Positions 1-8,290 of a stretch of 64,000 bases of DNA are shown in pieces. Made by a program: the position numbers and the translations under genes. The notes beneath the pieces are model-generated. The model was not told the DNA's origin. It was given only the letters and a program-made list of their open reading frames with translations, and did not search any database. The stretch is from Acidobacteriota bacterium (GTDB lineage Bacteria; Acidobacteriota; Vicinamibacteria; Vicinamibacterales; UBA2999), in contig CANKJK010000002.1 in the NCBI GenBank assembly GCA_947482665.1, positions 1-64,000 of the forward strand, written 5' to 3'. How positions within the stretch are numbered: position 1 is the first letter of the stretch; each line of letters begins with the position of its first letter.

Positions 1-147
1 CCCCTCAGCGCCCTCCACATGCACGGTGTGGGTGTGACCACCGAGACGGTCGTCCGACTCGAAGAGGTGCACCTCGTAGCGCCGGGAAAGGAGCCACGCG
101 GCGACCAGGCCCGAGATGCCCGCCCCGACGACGGCTACGCGTGTCAT
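1..147 (-). CDS. FAD-dependent amine-oxidase-like oxidoreductase (partial)
   Basis: Only the first 49 codons are inside the window; the gene runs off the left edge. The N-terminus is a Rossmann dinucleotide-binding fold: the GAGISGL motif (GxGxxG) at residues 8-14 follows a short beta strand, and an acidic residue (FESDDRLGGHTHT) sits at the end of the second strand where it would bind the FAD ribose. This matches the start of COG2907-type predicted NAD/FAD-binding proteins, relatives of protoporphyrinogen oxidase and amine oxidases, which are often found beside cyclopropane-fatty-acid synthase genes. It is read divergently from the DUF2177/MerR operon, with a near-consensus promoter whose -10 box lies 7 bases from the ATG. 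The fold is clear, but the substrate cannot be judged from this fragment. Confidence 0.8.
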   Translation of the reverse strand, partial: MTRVAVVGAGISGLVAAWLLSRRYEVHLFESDDRLGGHTHTVHVEGAEG

Positions 148-154
148 GGGATCA

Positions 155-183
155 CGTATAGCCCGGCGTCCAGTATTTGTCAA
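155..183 (-). promoter_or_regulatory. Promoter of the leftward FAD oxidoreductase gene
   Basis: On the minus strand a perfect -35 TTGACA (183-178) is followed after exactly 17 bases by TATACG (160-155) as -10. The ATG at 147 begins 7 bases after the -10, so transcription would start at or next to the A of the start codon, giving a leaderless or nearly leaderless mRNA. The -35 overlaps the direct repeat at 177-185. Confidence 0.75.
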
Positions 184-216
184 TGTTTTGTCCATGACAA
201 ACGCTTGACTCAAGCG
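177..216. promoter_or_regulatory. Probable operator region with direct and inverted repeats
   Basis: Between the two promoters lie a direct repeat TTGTCAATG (177-185) / TTGTCCATG (188-196) with an 11-base period, an inverted repeat TTTGTC-CAT-GACAAA (187-201), and a second inverted repeat CGCTTGA-C-TCAAGCG (202-216). The last one contains the -35 of the rightward promoter, and the first direct repeat contains the -35 of the leftward one. Tetrameric CarH proteins are known to bind direct repeats spaced by 11 bp, so this is the natural target for the MerR/B12 protein encoded at 632-1558. That assignment is inference. Confidence 0.6.
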
Positions 217-233
217 TCATGCGCGCCTATCGT
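205..233 (+). promoter_or_regulatory. Promoter of the DUF2177-MerR operon
   Basis: TTGACT (205-210) and TATCGT (228-233) are separated by exactly 17 bases. The ATG of the DUF2177 gene starts at 240, 6 bases after the -10, so the transcript would be leaderless. No Shine-Dalgarno sequence precedes the ATG. The -35 is the centre of the CGCTTGA/TCAAGCG inverted repeat, so a bound repressor would block it directly. Confidence 0.7.
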
Positions 234-239
234 TGAGCC

Positions 240-635
240 ATGCTCACCCTCTGGCCCACCCTCACCGGCATCACCGGGTATCTCGTCCTCGACGGACTCT
301 GGCTGGGCCTGCTGATGAGCCGGTTCTACCGAACCCAACTGGCGGGACTGGCGCGGATCTCGGGTGAACGCATCGCCCCGAACTGGTATGCGGCCGCGGT
401 GGTGTATGTGCTCCTCGGCGCCGGACTGGCCGCGCTGGTGACCAGCCGCGCGGACAGCGCCCTCTCGGCCCTCATCACCGGTGCGCTCTTCGGCGTGGTG
501 GTCTACGGGGTGTACGACTTCACCAACCTCTCCACGCTGCGAGACTGGCCGGTGCTGCTCACGGCTGTCGACCTCGCCTGGGGCACCGCCGCGTCGGCGC
601 TCTGTGCCCTGGCCATCTGGAGCGTCGCACGATGA
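240..635 (+). CDS. DUF2177 family membrane protein
   Basis: This 131-residue protein has about four hydrophobic segments (roughly residues 5-25, 45-66, 72-92 and 105-128). It has the DUF2177 features: a D-x-LWLG motif near residue 15 (LDGLWLGLL), a short basic loop with R-x-Y-R, and a YGVYDFTNLSTLRDWP block around residues 90-105. DUF2177 proteins have no established biochemical function. It is the first gene of the operon, appears to be expressed leaderless, and its stop overlaps the ATG of the MerR gene by 4 bases (ATGA at 632-635), which implies translational coupling. Being in the same operon as a B12 photoreceptor-type repressor suggests light- or B12-dependent expression. Confidence 0.85.
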   Translation: MLTLWPTLTGITGYLVLDGLWLGLLMSRFYRTQLAGLARISGERIAPNWYAAAVVYVLLGAGLAALVTSRADSALSALITGALFGVVVYGVYDFTNLSTLRDWPVLLTAVDLAWGTAASALCALAIWSVAR

Positions 636-1558
636 GCACGCGCACGGCCATCACCTATCCCATTCGCGCCGTGGCCAGGTTAACTGGCGTGCCGATCGAC
701 ACGCTGCGCGCCTGGGAACGCCGCTATGCGGCCGTGACGCCCGAGCGCGATGGCCGGGAACGCGTCTACTCCGATGACGACGTGGCGAGGCTGCGGCTGC
801 TCAACCGCGCCGTGCAATCAGGCCACGCGATCGGCCGGGCCTCGACACTCTCCAACGCCCAGCTCACCCGCTTGCTCGACACGCATACCACGGCAGAGGT
901 GGCAGGAGCCGCGGGTCATGCCGCCCCCGGCGTCGACACGGCCGTCCTCACGCGTGCGCTCGCGACGCTCGACAGCGCCGCGGTGGATGCCGAGTTCTCG
1001 CGGCTGGCGGCCACGGTGCCGCCGGTGACGCTCGTCCGCGACGTGCTGATGCCCACGATCCGCACATCCGGCGAGGACTGGATGGCGCAACCGGGCCGCA
1101 TCGCGCAGGAACACATGATGTCGGCCGCCATGCGCCACCTGATGGGCACCTTCCTGCGTCTGTACGCCAGGCCGCGTGGAGCCACGCGCCTCCTCTTCGC
1201 GACACCCGCGGGCGACCGGCACGAACTGGGCCTGCTGGGCGCGGCAGTGCTGGCGGCCAGTGCGGGCGTGGACGTCTCCTATGTCGGGCCGGACCTGCCG
1301 GCAGGAGAAATCGTGGCCGCGCTCTCCGCCTCCCGGGCGACGGTGCTCGTCCTGGGCATCACGCTCGACTCACGCGCCGCCGAACGGCTCCGCGACATCA
1401 CGGCGCTCGGCCGACAGCTTCCCGCCGCCGTGGAGCTCTGGGCCGGGGGCGCCGCAGCCGCGTCCTTCGCGAAGGAACTTGGCCCGCGCGCCATCATCCT
1501 GCCCAATCTGGACGCCTACGTGGCTGAGCTCGCCCGCGTGGGTCATCCCCATGCCTGA
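632..1558 (+). CDS. CarH/LitR-type MerR regulator with B12-binding photoreceptor domain
   Basis: The 308-residue protein has an N-terminal MerR winged helix (about residues 5-75; RAVARLTGVPIDTLRAWERR) followed by a helical-bundle plus cobalamin-binding domain. The hallmarks of coenzyme-B12 photoreceptors are present: W150 followed after nine residues by E160-H161 (W-x9-EH, the cap over adenosylcobalamin), and D195-R-H197-E-L-G (DxHxxG), where the His is the lower axial ligand. In CarH from Thermus and Myxococcus, AdoCbl-bound tetramer represses in the dark and light breaks the tetramer. This protein is therefore likely to repress its own operon and the divergent FAD gene in the dark. Its end overlaps the next ATG (1551-1558). 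Direct light sensing is inferred from motif conservation. Confidence 0.9.
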   Translation: MSTRTAITYPIRAVARLTGVPIDTLRAWERRYAAVTPERDGRERVYSDDDVARLRLLNRAVQSGHAIGRASTLSNAQLTRLLDTHTTAEVAGAAGHAAPGVDTAVLTRALATLDSAAVDAEFSRLAATVPPVTLVRDVLMPTIRTSGEDWMAQPGRIAQEHMMSAAMRHLMGTFLRLYARPRGATRLLFATPAGDRHELGLLGAAVLAASAGVDVSYVGPDLPAGEIVAALSASRATVLVLGITLDSRAAERLRDITALGRQLPAAVELWAGGAAAASFAKELGPRAIILPNLDAYVAELARVGHPHA

Positions 1559-3008
1559 ACGCACGATCCTGCTGACCGGCGCCACGGGCTACGTTGGCGG
1601 TCGCCTGCTCACGCAGCTGGCTGCCCGTGGGCACGCCGTGCGCTGCCTCGCCCGCAACGCCGCCTATCTCGCGCAGCGTCTGCCAGCAGGGGCGACCGTC
1701 ATGCAGGGTGACGTGACCGATCCGGCCTCGCTGGCGCGGGCGCTGGCAGGCGTGGATACCGCCTACTACCTGGTCCATGCGATGGGCGAAGCGTCCGGCT
1801 TCGAGGCGCGCGAACGCGCGGGGGCGATCTGCTTCGCCGACGCGGCGCTCGCCGCCGGCGTCCGCCGCATCATCTATCTCGGCGCGCTCGGCGATGAGCA
1901 CGCTGACCTCTCCCCCCACCTGCGGAGCCGGCAGGAGGTGGGCCGGCTGCTCCGGCAGTCAGGAGTCCCCACGATCGAGTTGCGCGCGTCCATCGTGATC
2001 GGGTCGGGTAGCCTCTCGTTCGAGATGGTGCGGGCACTCACCGAGCATCTCCCCGTCATGGTCATGCCCCGATGGGTCTCGGTGCTGGCACAACCCATCG
2101 GCATCCAGGACCTGCTCGCCTATCTCGTCGAGGCGCTGGACGTGCCACTCCCCGAGAGCCTTGTCGTGGAGATCGGCGGGCGGGACCGCGTGTCCTATCA
2201 GGGCATGATGGCCGAGTACGCGCGACAGCGCGGACTGCGGCGGCTGATGATCCCCGTGCCGGTGCTGACGCCCAGACTGAGCAGCCTCTGGCTGGGGCTC
2301 GTGACCCCGCTCTATGCCCGTGTCGGGCGCAAGCTCATCGAGAGCATCCGTCACCCCACGGTGGTGCAATCCGACCTGGCCGCGCGGCTCTTCTCCGTGC
2401 GCCCCATCGGCACCGCCGAGGCCATGCGCACGGCCCTCGATCACGAGGACCGCGCCTACGCGGAGACCTCCTGGTCTGATGCGGTCTCGGCGGCGGGCCT
2501 GACGGCGCCGCTCGCACCGCCCGCGCTCAGCGACCGCCTGCTCGACGTCCGCGAGGTGCACGTGCACGCGGATGCCGACGCCTGCTTCGCCGCCCTCACG
2601 ACGCTGGGTGGCGAGGAGGGTTGGCCCGCGTTCGACCTGCTGTGGCGCATCCGGGGCGCCATCGACCTCGTCGCCGGCGGCGTCGGCCTTCGCCGCGGCC
2701 GGCCCACGAACCGCCCCTTGCGCGCGGGCGACGCGCTGGACTTCTGGCGCGTGGAGACCTGCGATCGGCCGACACGTCTCAGGCTCTCCGCCGAGATGCG
2801 GCTGCCGGGCCGCGCCTGGTTCGACTATCAGATCCGGCGCACGGCCGAGGGCTGCACGCTGCGGCAGTGCGCGGAGTTTGATCCGTCGGGCCTCGCCGGG
2901 CGCCTCTACTGGTATGCGCTCGTGCCGCTGCACGCGATGATCTTCTCGCGCACGATCACGGTGCTGGCCGGCCGGGCTGAGCAGATCGCATCGGGGAAGG
3001 CCGCCTGA
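1551..3008 (+). CDS. SDR (NmrA/epimerase-like) oxidoreductase with C-terminal DUF2867
   Basis: The ATG at 1551 is chosen because it overlaps the end of the MerR gene by 8 bases and places the Rossmann motif GATGYVGG at residues 9-16. The 485-residue protein has an atypical short-chain dehydrogenase domain (about 1-300, including YYLVHAMG and IIYLGALG) and a C-terminal SRPBCC/START-like DUF2867 domain (about 330-480). This two-domain layout is a known family, usually annotated as 'SDR family oxidoreductase, DUF2867'; its substrate is unknown. SRPBCC domains bind hydrophobic ligands, and with the DUF1295 neighbour this suggests a lipid or isoprenoid-type substrate, which is inference. Its TGA overlaps the ATG of the next gene at 3008. 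Confidence 0.88.
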   Translation: MPERTILLTGATGYVGGRLLTQLAARGHAVRCLARNAAYLAQRLPAGATVMQGDVTDPASLARALAGVDTAYYLVHAMGEASGFEARERAGAICFADAALAAGVRRIIYLGALGDEHADLSPHLRSRQEVGRLLRQSGVPTIELRASIVIGSGSLSFEMVRALTEHLPVMVMPRWVSVLAQPIGIQDLLAYLVEALDVPLPESLVVEIGGRDRVSYQGMMAEYARQRGLRRLMIPVPVLTPRLSSLWLGLVTPLYARVGRKLIESIRHPTVVQSDLAARLFSVRPIGTAEAMRTALDHEDRAYAETSWSDAVSAAGLTAPLAPPALSDRLLDVREVHVHADADACFAALTTLGGEEGWPAFDLLWRIRGAIDLVAGGVGLRRGRPTNRPLRAGDALDFWRVETCDRPTRLRLSAEMRLPGRAWFDYQIRRTAEGCTLRQCAEFDPSGLAGRLYWYALVPLHAMIFSRTITVLAGRAEQIASGKAA

Positions 3009-4366
3009 TGACGGCCCAGCTCCTCACTGGACTTGTCGGCTGGGCCCTGGTGCTGGCCGCCGCCACGCTGCTCTGGGTTGTCAGCGTCCGCCGGCGTGAC
3101 GCCAGTCTCGCCGACATCGGCTGGGGCCTCGGGTTCGCGCTCCTCGCCTGGGTGTATCCCGTACTCGAAGGTAGAGTGTCCGGCCGTGGCCTCCTGCTCG
3201 CCATCGGGGTCACGGCATGGGGCGTTCGACTGGCCTGGCACATCGCGAGACGCCATCGAGGCGAAGACCGTCGCTATATGGCCTTACGAGCTGCGGCGGG
3301 TCCGCACTTCTGGTGGGCGAGCCTCGTCACCGTCTTCTGGCTGCAGGGAACACTCCTGTGGATCGTGGCCCTGCCGCTCCTCGTGGTGTCGTCAAGCCCA
3401 TCCACGCCCTTCAGTTGGACCGGGGCGATCGGCGGCCTCCTGATGGTCGCCGGCTTCGTGTGTGAAGCAGCCGCCGACGCGCAGCTCACGCGGTTCCGCG
3501 CGAGCGCGGCGCCAGGGGCCGTGCTCGACAGCGGACTCTGGCGCTACAGCCGACACCCGAACTACTTCGGTGACGCGGTGTTCTGGTGGGGAGTCTGGCT
3601 GGTCGCGGTGCCTGCTCCGCTCGGCCTTGCCGCCATCATTTCGCCGTCCCTCATGACGTGGCTCCTGCTGCGCGTCTCGGGCGTGGCGCTCCTCGACCGG
3701 ACACTCTCGGCCACCAAGCCGGCCTACCGCGACTACATCCGCCGGACGAGCGCCTTCATTCCCTGGCCGCCCAGGCGTCGAGAGACCGTGGCCGGACCTC
3801 CCCGCCGCACGGCCGTGCTCCTGGCCTGTGCCATGGCCGGCTCGCTCGGCGGCCCACTCTTCGCCGGCCCCAGCGAGGCACATCTGATGACGATTGGCGA
3901 CACCCTTCCAGCCCTGCGGGGCGAGTATCTGTCGGGCCGAAAGGCCCAGCTGCCCGAGGATGCGCGCGGCACAGCCGCCGTCATCCTGATGGGCTTCACC
4001 TACGCGTCACGCAAGCCGGTCGAAGCGTGGGCAGAACACCTCAAACCAGCCCTCGCGGGCATGCCCGGCACCACCTTCTACGAAGTGCCCGTCATCGGGG
4101 GCATGGCGCGCATGGGCAAGTGGTTCATCGACTCTGGCATGCGACGCGGCACACCGAAGGCGCTTCATGAGAACGTCATCACCGTCTGGGGCGAGACAAC
4201 ACAGTGGAAGGCCAGAGCCGGGGTGACTGACGACCGGGACCAGTTCGCGTACGTCACCCTCATCGATCGCGAGGGACGAATCCGCTGGCGCTATAGCGGT
4301 CTGTTCGACGAGGCCGCCTTCGACACGCTCGTGGGCGAACTGCGGGCTCTCGCCACGGAGCACTAG
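3008..4366 (+). CDS. DUF1295 membrane reductase-like protein fused to an ATP10/redoxin-like domain
   Basis: The first ~258 residues form a multi-pass DUF1295 (steroid 5-alpha-reductase/ICMT-like) domain: ADIGWG near residue 37, the GLWRYSRHPNYFGD block near residue 176, and a YRDYIRRTSAFIPWPPRR ending, which is where stand-alone DUF1295 proteins stop. The reading frame continues without a break into a signal-anchor-like stretch (about 262-290) and then a ~160-residue domain (FYEVPVIGGMARMGKWFIDSGMRRG, DRDQFAYVTLIDREGRIRWRYSG in two blocks) that resembles mitochondrial ATP10-like/redoxin folds but lacks a CxxC pair. DUF1295 enzymes use NADPH to reduce double bonds. The fusion seems genuine because codon use and frame are continuous. 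It is the last gene of the light-type operon. Confidence 0.8.
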   Translation: MTAQLLTGLVGWALVLAAATLLWVVSVRRRDASLADIGWGLGFALLAWVYPVLEGRVSGRGLLLAIGVTAWGVRLAWHIARRHRGEDRRYMALRAAAGPHFWWASLVTVFWLQGTLLWIVALPLLVVSSSPSTPFSWTGAIGGLLMVAGFVCEAAADAQLTRFRASAAPGAVLDSGLWRYSRHPNYFGDAVFWWGVWLVAVPAPLGLAAIISPSLMTWLLLRVSGVALLDRTLSATKPAYRDYIRRTSAFIPWPPRRRETVAGPPRRTAVLLACAMAGSLGGPLFAGPSEAHLMTIGDTLPALRGEYLSGRKAQLPEDARGTAAVILMGFTYASRKPVEAWAEHLKPALAGMPGTTFYEVPVIGGMARMGKWFIDSGMRRGTPKALHENVITVWGETTQWKARAGVTDDRDQFAYVTLIDREGRIRWRYSGLFDEAAFDTLVGELRALATEH

Positions 4367-4474: not shown

Positions 4475-5254
4475 GTGCCGGAGACGCCCTCGCCGCTCGA
4501 GGTGGCCCTGGGCCACCAGCGCCGCACGCTGGCCGTGCTGATCGTCGGCGTGCCGCTCGCGTGCTGGGCCTGGGTCATTGCGATGGCCAGAGACATGTAC
4601 GGCCCGATGACCGGTTCGTCCGCCTGGATGATGACCGCCACCTGGGACGCCGCGCATGTGCTGCTGCTCTGGGCGATGTGGGCGGCCATGATGGCCGGGA
4701 TGATGCTGCCCTCCTCCGCGCCGCTCATCCTGCTCTACGCCCGCGCATCGCGCCAGCGCACGGACCAGCGGCTGGCCTCCAGCCACACGTACGGTCTCAC
4801 GGCTGGATACGTGGTCGTCTGGACACTCTTCAGCCTGGCCGCGACCTTCCTCCAGCGGGCGCTCGCGTCATCGCAGCTGCTCACCCCGATGATGGAGCCC
4901 GCGTCGAGGGGAGCCGCCGCCGGTCTGCTGCTCGCCGCCGGCCTCTATCAGCTCACGCCCCTCAAGCAGGCATGCCTGCGCTCCTGCCGCACGCCCCTCG
5001 CGTTCCTGTCGTCCCGGTGGCGTGCTGGCGTCGCCGGAGCCATGCGGATGGGCGTCGAACATGGCATCGCCTGTCTCGGGTGCTGCTGGGCGCTGATGCT
5101 GCTGCTCTTCGCGGGCGGCGTCATGAACCTCGCCGTGGTGGCAGCGCTGACGGCGTGGGTGGCGATCGAGAAGCTGGCGCCCTTCGGCGAGCAGAGCGCC
5201 CGCATCAGCGGCGCCCTGCTCCTGGTCATGTCTGGCTGGATGTACGTCCGGTAA
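4475..5254 (+). CDS. DUF2182 domain-containing membrane protein
   Basis: The 259-residue protein is highly hydrophobic, with about seven membrane segments. It carries the Met-rich DUF2182 signature (WAMWAAMMAGMMLPSSAP at about residues 66-83) and a second conserved block, LTPLKQACLRSCRTP, near residue 164. The family is described as a predicted metal-binding integral membrane protein; the function is unproven. The GTG start at 4475 fits the CATAAT box just upstream and puts the first membrane span near residue 20. It ends 5 bases from the end of the convergent DUF1326 gene. DUF2182 and DUF1326 are frequent neighbours, so they probably work together. Confidence 0.88.
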   Translation: MPETPSPLEVALGHQRRTLAVLIVGVPLACWAWVIAMARDMYGPMTGSSAWMMTATWDAAHVLLLWAMWAAMMAGMMLPSSAPLILLYARASRQRTDQRLASSHTYGLTAGYVVVWTLFSLAATFLQRALASSQLLTPMMEPASRGAAAGLLLAAGLYQLTPLKQACLRSCRTPLAFLSSRWRAGVAGAMRMGVEHGIACLGCCWALMLLLFAGGVMNLAVVAALTAWVAIEKLAPFGEQSARISGALLLVMSGWMYVR

Positions 5255-5259
5255 GGCGC

Positions 5260-5901
5260 TCAGGCCGCGGCCGTCGCGTCTCGGTTGCTCCAGTTGAAGT
5301 CGTAGAGGATCCAGTTCGTCCCGGCAAAGGAGAGATCAAGGCTCTGCGCCTTCGCCGTGAAGGTGCCGGACCCGCACTGTCCGCGCGTCCAGATGAAACC
5401 ATCAGGCAGCTCCACCGTCGCGTGATGCTCCTCGCCCGTCACCGGATTCTTGAAGGAGTCGCCACGGCCCTCCGCGATGCCTTCCACGCGGAAGGTGCTC
5501 TTCACCCCTTCGCCTTCGATCGTCATCGTGGCCTTCTCGAGACCAACGACTTCAAACGTCGTGCCGAGAATCTGCCACGGCATGCCGCCGAGCTGCCCGC
5601 TGAAGATCTGCGCCAACGCGCCAATCTGCGCCTCGGTCGTCGCCGGCTCCACCATGAACACGCACTTGCCGTGACCTTCGTGAATCGCTTTGGGCCACGA
5701 GAGAATGGCCGCGCAGGTCAGGCCAGCCAGATCCACGTCTCCACAGGCGCCAGCCGCGAACCGCATGCCGACCAGCGCACGACAACTACCGTCCTTGGAG
5801 TTCGGGAACCCGCCGAAATTGCAGCCGCACCCGAAGTCGCAATTGCAGAACTCATAGCCTGTTCCGCGCAGGTGCCAGGTCGCCGGTGTGTTGTCCTGCA
5901 T
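5260..5901 (-). CDS. DUF1326 domain-containing protein
   Basis: The start at 5901 was chosen over a longer reading because a GGAGGAG Shine-Dalgarno lies just upstream and the protein then begins with the family's N-terminus. The 213-residue protein has the DUF1326 cysteine cluster at residues 18-24 (CNCDFGCGC within about ten residues), followed by several conserved Asp/Gly turns. It has no signal peptide. DUF1326 function is unknown; the Cys cluster suggests metal or Fe-S binding, which is inference. It is read toward its usual partner DUF2182 instead of in the same direction, an uncommon arrangement that separates their control. Confidence 0.88.
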   Translation of the reverse strand: MQDNTPATWHLRGTGYEFCNCDFGCGCNFGGFPNSKDGSCRALVGMRFAAGACGDVDLAGLTCAAILSWPKAIHEGHGKCVFMVEPATTEAQIGALAQIFSGQLGGMPWQILGTTFEVVGLEKATMTIEGEGVKSTFRVEGIAEGRGDSFKNPVTGEEHHATVELPDGFIWTRGQCGSGTFTAKAQSLDLSFAGTNWILYDFNWSNRDATAAA

Positions 5902-6073
5902 CTCCGTACTCCTCCTCGCCCATCTGCACAGGCGTCTGGGGGAGCACTCTACACCCATCGTGCCAGGGCGGGCAGCCACTCCGCGGTACCGCTCAGACCG
6001 CCGGAAGCCCTGACATAATTGCGGCGCCGCTGGCCCGTACGCGCTTCGGCCCAGAACGAGAGGCTGACCTTTG

Positions 6074-8290
6074 ATGAGACCCACCCTTTGCCGCATCGGA
6101 CGAGCGGCGCTGCTCCTGACGTTCTCCTTCACCCCGGGGCTCGCGTCGGCTCAGGGCACGGACGCCGGCGGCGCGACGCTTGCCACGCTGCCCCGCCCCA
6201 TAGCCTCGGCCACGCGCGCGGTCGGCCCGCTGGTCATCGATGGCGCGTTGACGGAGGCGGACTGGGCGCGGGCTGTGGTGCTCGGCAGCTTCATCCAGGC
6301 CGAACCAGCCGCCGGGCAACCGGCCAGCGAAGCCAGCGAAGTCCGCATCCTCTTCGATGACAACGCGCTCTATATCGGCGCGCTGCTGCGCGACACCGAC
6401 CCAGCCGGCATCGTCACGTCCAGCGAACGCCGCGATACGACCCTTGGCGATCAGGACTCATTCGAGGTCGTGCTGGATACGTTTCGCGATCGGCAGAATG
6501 GCTTCATCTTCGGCACCAACGCCTCGGGCATCCAGTACGACGCGCAGATCCGCAACCAGACGGCCAACGCCAGCTGGGACGGGAGCTGGGACGTGCGGAC
6601 GCAACGCACCGACACCGGCTGGACCGCCGAGATCCGCATCCCCCTGCGGACACTCCGGTACGGTCCAGCGCCGCAGTCCTGGGGCGTCAACTTCACGCGG
6701 AACATCCAACGCCGCCGGGAGCGAACCTATTGGGCGCCGCTGCCGCGACAGTTCGACCTTGAGCGCCTCTCGCTCGCTGGCGATCTGCGCGGCTTGTCGC
6801 TCAAGACGCCCCACAACCTGAAGATCCTTCCCTACGCCAGTGGGTCCGCCAACCGGAACTTCACGCCCGGGTCGACCACGACCACCGACGGCGAGTTCGG
6901 GGTGGACGCGAAGCTGGGCCTCACGCCGAGTCTCAATCTCGACCTGACCTACAACACCGACTTTGCGCAGGTTGAGGTCGACAACCAGCAGATCAACCTC
7001 ACGCGATTCAACATCCGCTTCCCCGAAAAGCGCCCCTTCTTCCTGGAGAATGCCGGCCTCTTCACCATCGGCGCCGCGGCCAGCGGCACCAGCACCGGCA
7101 ACCTTGACCTCTTCTTCAGCCGCCGGATCGGTCTCGACGAGACCGGCAATCTCGTGCCTATTCTGGGAGGCGCGCGGCTCAGTGGGCGCACCAACGGCTA
7201 CAACGTCGGGCTGCTCAACATGCAAACCGACTCTGTGGGCCTGGGGCCCGGCGACAACTTCACCGTCGCCCGCGTCAGCCGCGACCTGCCCAGCCGCTCA
7301 GGCGTGGGCGCGATGTTCATCAACCGCGATGCCACTGGGGTCGGTGCCAGGACCGACGACTGGAATCGGACGTTTGGCCTCGATGGACGGCTCGGCCTTG
7401 GTGAGCGCTTTACCGTCGGCAGCTTCGCCGCACGGACGAACACGCCAGGCCTCACCGGTCGAGACACCGCCTGGAACATGACCTCGGTGTATGACGACGG
7501 CAAGACGTCCATGAACTTCGACTACGGCGTGGTCGGCGAGGATTTCAACCCGGAGGTCGGCTACCTGGAGAACACGTTCGGGTACCGGCGCTGGTATGCG
7601 CGCTTTCAGGAAAACCTGCGCCAGGAGCGCATCAAGCGCTGGGGGTTCCGTGAATTCCAACCCCACATCAACTACACGCGCTACGAGTATCTGGACACCG
7701 GAGAGTTGCAGAACGGCAACCTCCACATCGACAACCACTGGGATTGGGAGAACGGTAACTTCATCAGTACCGCCGTCAACGGCGTCTGGGAAGGCCTCCG
7801 CCGGCCGTTTCAGGTGTATCCGGGCATCGTCGTTCCGCCGGGCGAGCACGGCGGTCTCCGCCTGACGCTTCGAGAGAACACCGACCGCCGCAAGCGCGTG
7901 TTCTTCCGCCACCAGTGGGACAAGGGCCGGTTTCTGACGGGCGATCAGAACAGCCACATCTTCGAGACCATCGTTCGCGAAGGCGGGTCGTTCATCGTGG
8001 ACCTCACCTGGACCCACCAGCGCATCAGCCTGCCCCAAGGCGCCTTCCACACCAACCTCGGCAGCCTGAAGGTGACCTACAATTTCACGCCATCGGTCTT
8101 TGTGCAGAGCCTGATTCAGTACAACGACCTGACACGGCGCTGGTCCACGAACCTGCGATTCCACGTGCTGGAAACGGCCGGCACGGGTCTCTTCGTTGTC
8201 TACAACGACACCGAAAGCCTGCAGGGCGTGGGGCCAGTGAATCGCGCTTTCATCGTGAAGTATGTGAAACAGCTCGACCTGTTGCGGTAG
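6074..8290 (+). CDS. DUF5916 outer-membrane-like protein with N-terminal CBM9-like domain
   Basis: The 738-residue protein has a signal peptide (residues 1-27, ending SASA-Q-like). Next comes a carbohydrate-binding family-9-like domain (about 45-240; VIDGALTEADWARA, IGALLRDTDP, the latter typical of this fold), then the DUF5916 region, which is predicted to be a beta-barrel with alternating aromatic strands. The ATG at 6074 is preferred over the in-frame TTG directly before it. A repeat of the barrel-family block DLTYNTDFAQVEVDNQQINL occurs at about residues 293-312, and the protein ends in hydrophobic and aromatic residues. Such proteins are abundant in Acidobacteriota and Bacteroidota with no known ligand. 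A second copy lies at 27501-29735. Confidence 0.85.
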   Translation: MRPTLCRIGRAALLLTFSFTPGLASAQGTDAGGATLATLPRPIASATRAVGPLVIDGALTEADWARAVVLGSFIQAEPAAGQPASEASEVRILFDDNALYIGALLRDTDPAGIVTSSERRDTTLGDQDSFEVVLDTFRDRQNGFIFGTNASGIQYDAQIRNQTANASWDGSWDVRTQRTDTGWTAEIRIPLRTLRYGPAPQSWGVNFTRNIQRRRERTYWAPLPRQFDLERLSLAGDLRGLSLKTPHNLKILPYASGSANRNFTPGSTTTTDGEFGVDAKLGLTPSLNLDLTYNTDFAQVEVDNQQINLTRFNIRFPEKRPFFLENAGLFTIGAAASGTSTGNLDLFFSRRIGLDETGNLVPILGGARLSGRTNGYNVGLLNMQTDSVGLGPGDNFTVARVSRDLPSRSGVGAMFINRDATGVGARTDDWNRTFGLDGRLGLGERFTVGSFAARTNTPGLTGRDTAWNMTSVYDDGKTSMNFDYGVVGEDFNPEVGYLENTFGYRRWYARFQENLRQERIKRWGFREFQPHINYTRYEYLDTGELQNGNLHIDNHWDWENGNFISTAVNGVWEGLRRPFQVYPGIVVPPGEHGGLRLTLRENTDRRKRVFFRHQWDKGRFLTGDQNSHIFETIVREGGSFIVDLTWTHQRISLPQGAFHTNLGSLKVTYNFTPSVFVQSLIQYNDLTRRWSTNLRFHVLETAGTGLFVVYNDTESLQGVGPVNRAFIVKYVKQLDLLR

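Follow-up and report, generated by a model that had tools for sequence, protein, structure and literature searches.

Photoreceptors of the CarH/LitR family are mostly known as switches of carotenoid synthesis, and Rhodobacter sphaeroides has its sigma-E/ChrR circuit for singlet oxygen. The closest published system that we found for the locus described here is the regulon of the class II LitR of Pseudomonas, which is independent of B12 and contains ufaM, and every part of the locus has a known relative. In R. sphaeroides and R. palustris the enzymes UfaM, UfaD and UfaO, the last with a DUF1365 domain, were reported to produce furan fatty acids; the R. palustris genes RPA2571 (ufaD), RPA2570 (ufaO) and RPA2569 (ufaM) were described as necessary and sufficient for making furan acids in that species, and the furan acid as lost on exposure to singlet oxygen and protective for the cell (PMC7380195). 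The locus in question lies at the start of a 64,000-nucleotide stretch of DNA from an Acidobacteriota bacterium of the UBA2999 lineage (assembly GCA_947482665.1, contig CANKJK010000002.1, positions 1 to 64,000, forward strand), hereafter the window, where a LitR/CarH-type regulator stands between two divergent operons. Its gene content, the signature residues and fold model of the regulator, a conserved palindrome and conserved linkage suggest that it is probably a light switch of the B12-type LitR class for a protective membrane lipid of the furan type, with both operons repressed in the dark.

The regulator belongs to a tight operon of four genes on the forward strand (240-4366), which encodes a DUF2177 protein, LitR, an SDR-DUF2867 enzyme and a DUF1295 protein that ends in an ATP10-like domain. 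An earlier note on this DNA had claimed such an operon, and all of its genes were found in place, matched by Pfam and overlapping in an operon-like manner by 4, 8 and 1 bases; these figures take the SDR start as 1551, which was our choice, the mechanical list of open reading frames (ORFs) beginning that frame at 1176. The same note had read a full B12 signature (W150, E160-H161 and H197) in the regulator, and the residues do stand at exactly these positions and are conserved in orthologues.

LitR, of 308 residues (632-1558, forward strand), was recognized by its domains, motifs, orthologue alignment and fold model. It has matches to MerR_1 (57.5 bits), B12-binding_2 (36 bits) and B12-binding (29.6 bits, the cut-off being 32.1), and the published B12-photoreceptor signature is complete in it, the four motifs GxxW, EH, GxxH and GxxxP (PMC11796333) taking the forms GEDW, EH, GDRH and GPDLP. 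In an alignment of 14 orthologues, the window protein included, W150, H161 and H197 were invariant and E160 was kept in 12, so that the signature residues are not there by chance. The LitR orthologues of loci L016 and L017 have glycine in place of E160 and keep the other three residues. The CarH/LitR of Thermus thermophilus was matched over residues 7-256 (phmmer E 5.1e-20), and the AlphaFold model of LitR (pLDDT, the predicted local distance difference test, 88.6) had T. thermophilus CarH as its top matches in the PDB, with E 2.4e-15 and about 29% identity. Cobalamin-domain chains were superposed on the model with a TMt of about 0.8; full-length superpositions were loose (root-mean-square deviation 12-18 Å), because the domain angles differ. 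The class II proteins of Pseudomonas are told by a missing C-terminal domain, and the window protein, with a C-terminal B12-binding match and the cobalt-ligand histidine, falls outside that class. A corrinoid adenosyltransferase is encoded in the window's genome. Judged by its sequence, the protein would be a B12-type LitR/CarH regulator, predicted to bind B12 and to respond to light.

Upstream of the operon lies the predicted LitR operator, TGTCAA-N3-TTTGTCCATGACAAA-N3-TTGACT (178-210, without assigned strand), a palindrome that is conserved in relatives. Its left arm (178-183) would serve as the -35 element of the leftward promoter and its right arm (205-210) as that of the rightward one. 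The promoter-like site of the DUF2177-LitR operon, TTGACT-17-TATCGT (205-233, forward strand), came from a promoter scan which, over 5.4 kb, returned two sites like it against a mean of 0.3 in shuffled sequences. For the leftward operon a putative -10 element, TATACG (155-160, reverse strand), 17 bases from the -35, was picked by eye; the scanner puts the leftward site at 200-172 instead, slightly off this reading. Fifteen sites, from the window, its copy on contig C9 (see below) and 13 in relatives, gave the consensus TGTCAA-N3-TTTGTC-CAT-GACAAA-N3-TTGACA, in which dyad bases occupy 12 of the 14 positions that were scored. Because the sites were picked by their core (two mismatches at most, one such two-mismatch site in L054 being left out), selection accounts for the consensus of the core and for half of the symmetry there; the outer arms, which the sites also share, were not used in picking. 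With one mismatch at most, the core occurred in 23 of 37 gaps between FAD oxidoreductase and LitR genes, which vary in length, versus 6 of 553 random 700-bp segments, and the gap scan overlooked at least one box, that of L095. Similar boxes precede the LitR genes, about 30% identical, of Azoarcus sp. KH32C and Eleftheria terrae, and the Azoarcus LitR also faces genes for an FAD enzyme, DUF1365 and a cyclopropane fatty acid (CFA) synthase-type protein. A search for a wider regulon, using the 13-base core TTGTCCATGACAA with one mismatch at most, found no site elsewhere in the window's genome, the core occurring once on each overlapping contig end; this count is no enrichment, because a backward control pattern also gave two matches. 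A photolyase was considered as a partner and rejected, the one on contig C13 (a weak match, 28 bits with a cut-off of 26.6) carrying no operator box.

LitR that carries adenosylcobalamin is predicted to sit, in the dark, on the 178-210 palindrome and to cover the -35 elements of both divergent promoters, so that both operons, LitR's own included, would be silenced. Light would break the Co-C bond of the cofactor, LitR would leave the DNA, and both operons would be expressed.

The facing operon begins in the window with a flavin adenine dinucleotide (FAD) oxidoreductase of the UfaD-like family, which is a stub of 49 N-terminal residues there (1-147, reverse strand) because base 1 is the end of contig C2. 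The complete gene, of 416 residues, is on contig C9 (L038:9504-10754), so the facing oxidoreductase previously reported is real. The end of C9 overlaps the start of the window with 364 of 375 aligned positions identical and three gaps, the differences falling in the stretch that separates the starts of the FAD and DUF2177 genes. The two contigs would join here, and unbroken contigs of relatives, for example the one-contig genome of L040, have the same gene order as the join. The overlapping ends (window 1-374 and the end of L038), 97% alike and differing in the promoter region, may stem from two strains whose variants of the switch both entered the assembly.

After the FAD oxidoreductase, C9 carries DUF1365 (UfaO family), a CFA-family methyltransferase (UfaM-like) and an acyl-acyl carrier protein (ACP) desaturase (FA_desaturase_2). 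Pfam matches of these proteins reached 97 bits for Amino_oxidase and 60 bits for NAD_binding_8 (both in the FAD enzyme), 251 bits for DUF1365 and 286 bits for CMAS, and the best solved relative of the desaturase is the delta-9 stearoyl-ACP desaturase 1afr (E 1.3e-87). The only DUF1365 match of the window's genome and its best CFA-synthase match both lie near this contig end. The FAD, DUF1365 and CMAS genes are of the UfaD, UfaO and UfaM families and stand in the R. palustris gene-number order. From these gene families the product is likely a furan fatty acid: the desaturase would make an unsaturated acyl chain, the UfaM-like enzyme would methylate it, the UfaD-like enzyme would desaturate it again, and the DUF1365/UfaO-like protein would close the furan ring with O2, and the resulting furan fatty acid would consume singlet oxygen.

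The CFA-family proteins of the loci examined differ from E. coli Cfa at positions followed in an alignment of 58 rows, in which some contigs are repeated, the window genome stands twice and E. coli Cfa is the sole true Cfa. At the position of His266, a bicarbonate ligand in E. coli Cfa (PMC11387697), glutamine was found in all 56 proteins that cover the site. His240 is replaced by alanine in 58 of 58, Glu239 is kept in 57 (one gap) and Tyr317 in 56 (two gaps). Nearly all of the compared proteins adjoin FAD and DUF1365 genes, one exception being L152.

The linkage of LitR to this trio was followed in named genomes, for which the LitR alignment served as the query; 443 relatives were found, the best 80 were kept, and neighbouring genes were assigned by phmmer matches. 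At least 4.5 kb of upstream DNA was present in 59 of the 80 loci, and the divergent FAD-DUF1365-CMAS trio in 29 of these 59. The full W-E-H-H signature is carried by 26 of the 29 trio loci, and by 66 of the 80 overall. As labelled, 25 of the trio loci are acidobacterial and the rest belong to Acidimicrobiia (L092, L104), Opitutaceae (L121) and Deltaproteobacteria (L156). When trio loci of any length are taken (30), DUF1295 was found in 24, DUF2177 in 13 and SDR-DUF2867 in 9. A separate set of 20 relative loci had the full trio beside LitR in 10, the others being cut by contig ends (L042, L047), short (L046, L049, L053) or without the trio (L041, L054, L056, L057, L058); since several contigs are common to both sets, they are not independent. 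Across 59 related genomes, DUF1365 was present in 12 of the 14 with a close LitR versus 11 of the 45 without one (12/2/11/34, Fisher p = 6.7e-5), where close means E below about 1e-60, our own cut, which omits weaker matches such as those in G040 and G043. Both genomes with a close LitR and no DUF1365 have LitR on contigs shorter than 5 kb. A LitR-like regulator in L078 (10748-11641) faces the same trio and has no cobalt-ligand histidine, and is therefore perhaps a B12-free version.

A number of observations weigh against the B12-dependent furan switch, and three other explanations, which are not mutually exclusive, were considered beside it. The C9-C2 join crosses mismatches. The UfaD, UfaO and UfaM assignment is made at the level of families, and the best NCBIfam matches of the methyltransferase are models of cyclopropane synthases, just as its best PDB match is E. 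coli Cfa. The same B12 switch might then control a cyclopropane or a methyl-branched unsaturated fatty acid, with DUF1365 performing some other oxidation, and the cyclopropane synthases of cotton were also reported to have lost the equivalent of His266, mostly with glutamine in its place (PMC3132707), for which reason the furan product is called likely and not proven. However, none of the cyclopropane models reaches its cut-off, and the FAD, DUF1365 and methyltransferase families are grouped in the order of RPA2571-2569 (PMC7380195), so that a product of this other kind appears unlikely.

On the side of the regulator, the B12-binding match is just below the Pfam cut-off, the score for the NCBIfam CarH equivalog NF052513 is 93.7 bits against a cut-off of 400, which is why LitR is not filed as a CarH equivalog, and one of the four signature residues is missing in three of the 29 trio loci (L104, L116, L121). 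LitR could be a sensor of the B12 level or of redox state, or could respond to light through another protein, as does the class II LitR with a short LOV protein in P. mendocina. The residues of the signature have a role in B12 binding itself, class II LitR was reported to function without B12 (PMC9758184), E160 is lost in two orthologues and the L078 protein has no cobalt ligand; yet in the window LitR neither B12 domain is missing and every motif of the proven photoreceptor signature is there (PMC11796333), and the output families were reported as induced by light or singlet oxygen elsewhere (PMC9758184, PMC4067076), which makes a sensor of another kind distinctly unlikely. The linkage also has its gaps: the trio is absent from 30 of the 59 named loci whose upstream DNA is long enough, 14 of the 37 FAD-LitR gaps have a core with two or more mismatches or one missed by the scan, and L052/G007 has the trio and no good box. 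If the two operons were mere neighbours, LitR would control its own operon and the FAD-DUF1365-CMAS genes would be controlled otherwise, and DUF1365 does occur without a close LitR in 11 of the 59 relatives. This we hold to be very improbable, as a single palindrome carries the -35 elements of both putative promoters, and 29 of the 59 loci retain the pairing.

The output of the B12-type switch would be a lipid. A carotenoid output was rejected, since no match to SQS_PSY, the phytoene/squalene synthase family, was found in the window's genome (97.5% complete), and no carotenoid gene stands beside the regulator among the eight window and six C9 proteins scanned; the carotenoid test was made in the window's genome alone. 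This bears out what the earlier note had said of lipid-directed rather than carotenoid output, but its view that the light response was wholly unclear does not hold, for the facing operon consists of families of the furan-fatty-acid pathway, a known defence against singlet oxygen. The genes of the rightward operon suit this kind of stress as well, since their families recur in light or singlet-oxygen settings elsewhere. The SAK1-dependent singlet-oxygen genes of Chlamydomonas were reported to include CFA1, CFA2, DUF1365, DUF2177, DUF1295 and fasciclin genes (PMC4067076), frequent neighbours of heliorhodopsin to include DUF2177, MerR-family, SDR and photolyase genes (PMC11109279), and an SDR-DUF2867 protein was found in the T. 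thermophilus carH region with 398 bits. The DUF2177, SDR-DUF2867 and DUF1295-ATP10 proteins are probably redox enzymes that, under photo-oxidative stress, would modify membrane lipids or repair them; in the literature surveyed, no assigned reaction was found for DUF2177, SDR-DUF2867 or DUF1295.

The DUF2177 protein (240-635, forward strand) is a predicted membrane protein of 131 residues, matched at 100 bits by Pfam, and the SDR-DUF2867 oxidoreductase (1551-3008, forward strand) has 485 residues and a DUF2867 match of 101 bits. The DUF1295 membrane protein (3008-4366, forward strand; 206 bits) is fused to the ATP10-like domain, a weak match of 24.8 bits with a cut-off of 22.3. The predicted structure of its DUF1295 part bears a weak resemblance to a sterol reductase and ICMT (best E 1.2e-3), and the ATP10-like half gave a poor model and no trustworthy match in a fold search. 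In some relatives, such as L048 and L051, the ATP10-like domain is a separate gene near SDR-DUF2867, and by eye the linker of the fusion resembles a former signal peptide. Adjoining the operon are a gene of the PpoB2 (copper chaperone) family (4475-5254, forward strand) and a convergent DUF1326 gene (5260-6132, reverse strand). In six relative loci (L040, L043, L045, L048, L050, L051) LitR is separated from the SDR/ATP10 genes by an ORF of 826-839 residues, which in L048 is a TonB-dependent receptor by Pfam and has phmmer relatives in the same place in named loci; no ORF of this type stands at that position in the window genome. A RudS-type protein (thiouracil desulfurase with DUF1722; L048, 2111-3097), a photolyase-related protein (L050, 1-1608) and fasciclin genes (L040, 1519-2016; L045; L055) were also seen near LitR clusters, and RudS genes have been reported in light-responsive operons (PMC11417400).

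It is conceivable, and we put it forward tentatively, that the B12 photoreceptors of Acidobacteriota mainly run a carotenoid-free photoprotection of the membrane, with the furan operon joined by a DUF2177/SDR-DUF2867/DUF1295 operon that carries out new redox steps on lipids or quinones. If this were true, these three families would form a general singlet-oxygen lipid pathway, being the same ones that algae induce with singlet oxygen. The locus would offer a testable setting for families that are seen in light and singlet-oxygen settings elsewhere, and it would add a new operator and a new output to B12-based light control, in a pairing that recurs in many acidobacterial genomes.

Compared with the class I, adenosyl-B12-dependent CarH/LitR of T. 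thermophilus and Myxococcus xanthus, the regulator has the same MerR helix-turn-helix, two B12 domains, W-EH-H signature and fold model. The carH region of T. thermophilus HB27 also holds an SDR-DUF2867 gene, but carH stands there beside carotenoid and photolyase genes, whereas the window LitR, about 30% identical, faces a fatty-acid operon. The Pseudomonas class II systems are alike in output: ufaM was reported among the genes under LitR control in P. putida and again in the pmlR1 region of P. mendocina, where it is accompanied by genes for an FAD oxidoreductase and a short-chain dehydrogenase; they differ in that their LitR lacks the C-terminal B12 domain and, in P. mendocina, is under the control of a LOV protein, and in that the P. 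mendocina cluster has a photolyase, absent from the window cluster (PMC9758184). With the UfaM-UfaD-UfaO systems of R. sphaeroides and R. palustris the locus has in common the three enzyme families in the R. palustris gene-number order, but in R. sphaeroides the furan acid was reported to rise in a chrR deletion (PMC7380195), while here a B12-type LitR and an added acyl-ACP desaturase are found. In the blue-light response of Vibrio cholerae through ChrR, too, a regulator resembling MerR takes part and a CFA-synthase gene is induced, although regulator and CFA gene lie apart (VCA0056 and VC1122; PMC5241685), and the SAK1 response of Chlamydomonas co-induces CFA1, CFA2, DUF1365, DUF2177 and DUF1295 genes (PMC4067076), although in a eukaryote, under another regulator and from scattered genes. 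Among the literature matches listed (titles and the starts of abstracts), none paired an adenosyl-B12-type LitR with furan acids. What seems to be new is the B12-dependent class of LitR acting on this output by way of a single operator common to both operons, where the genome yielded no match to phytoene synthase.

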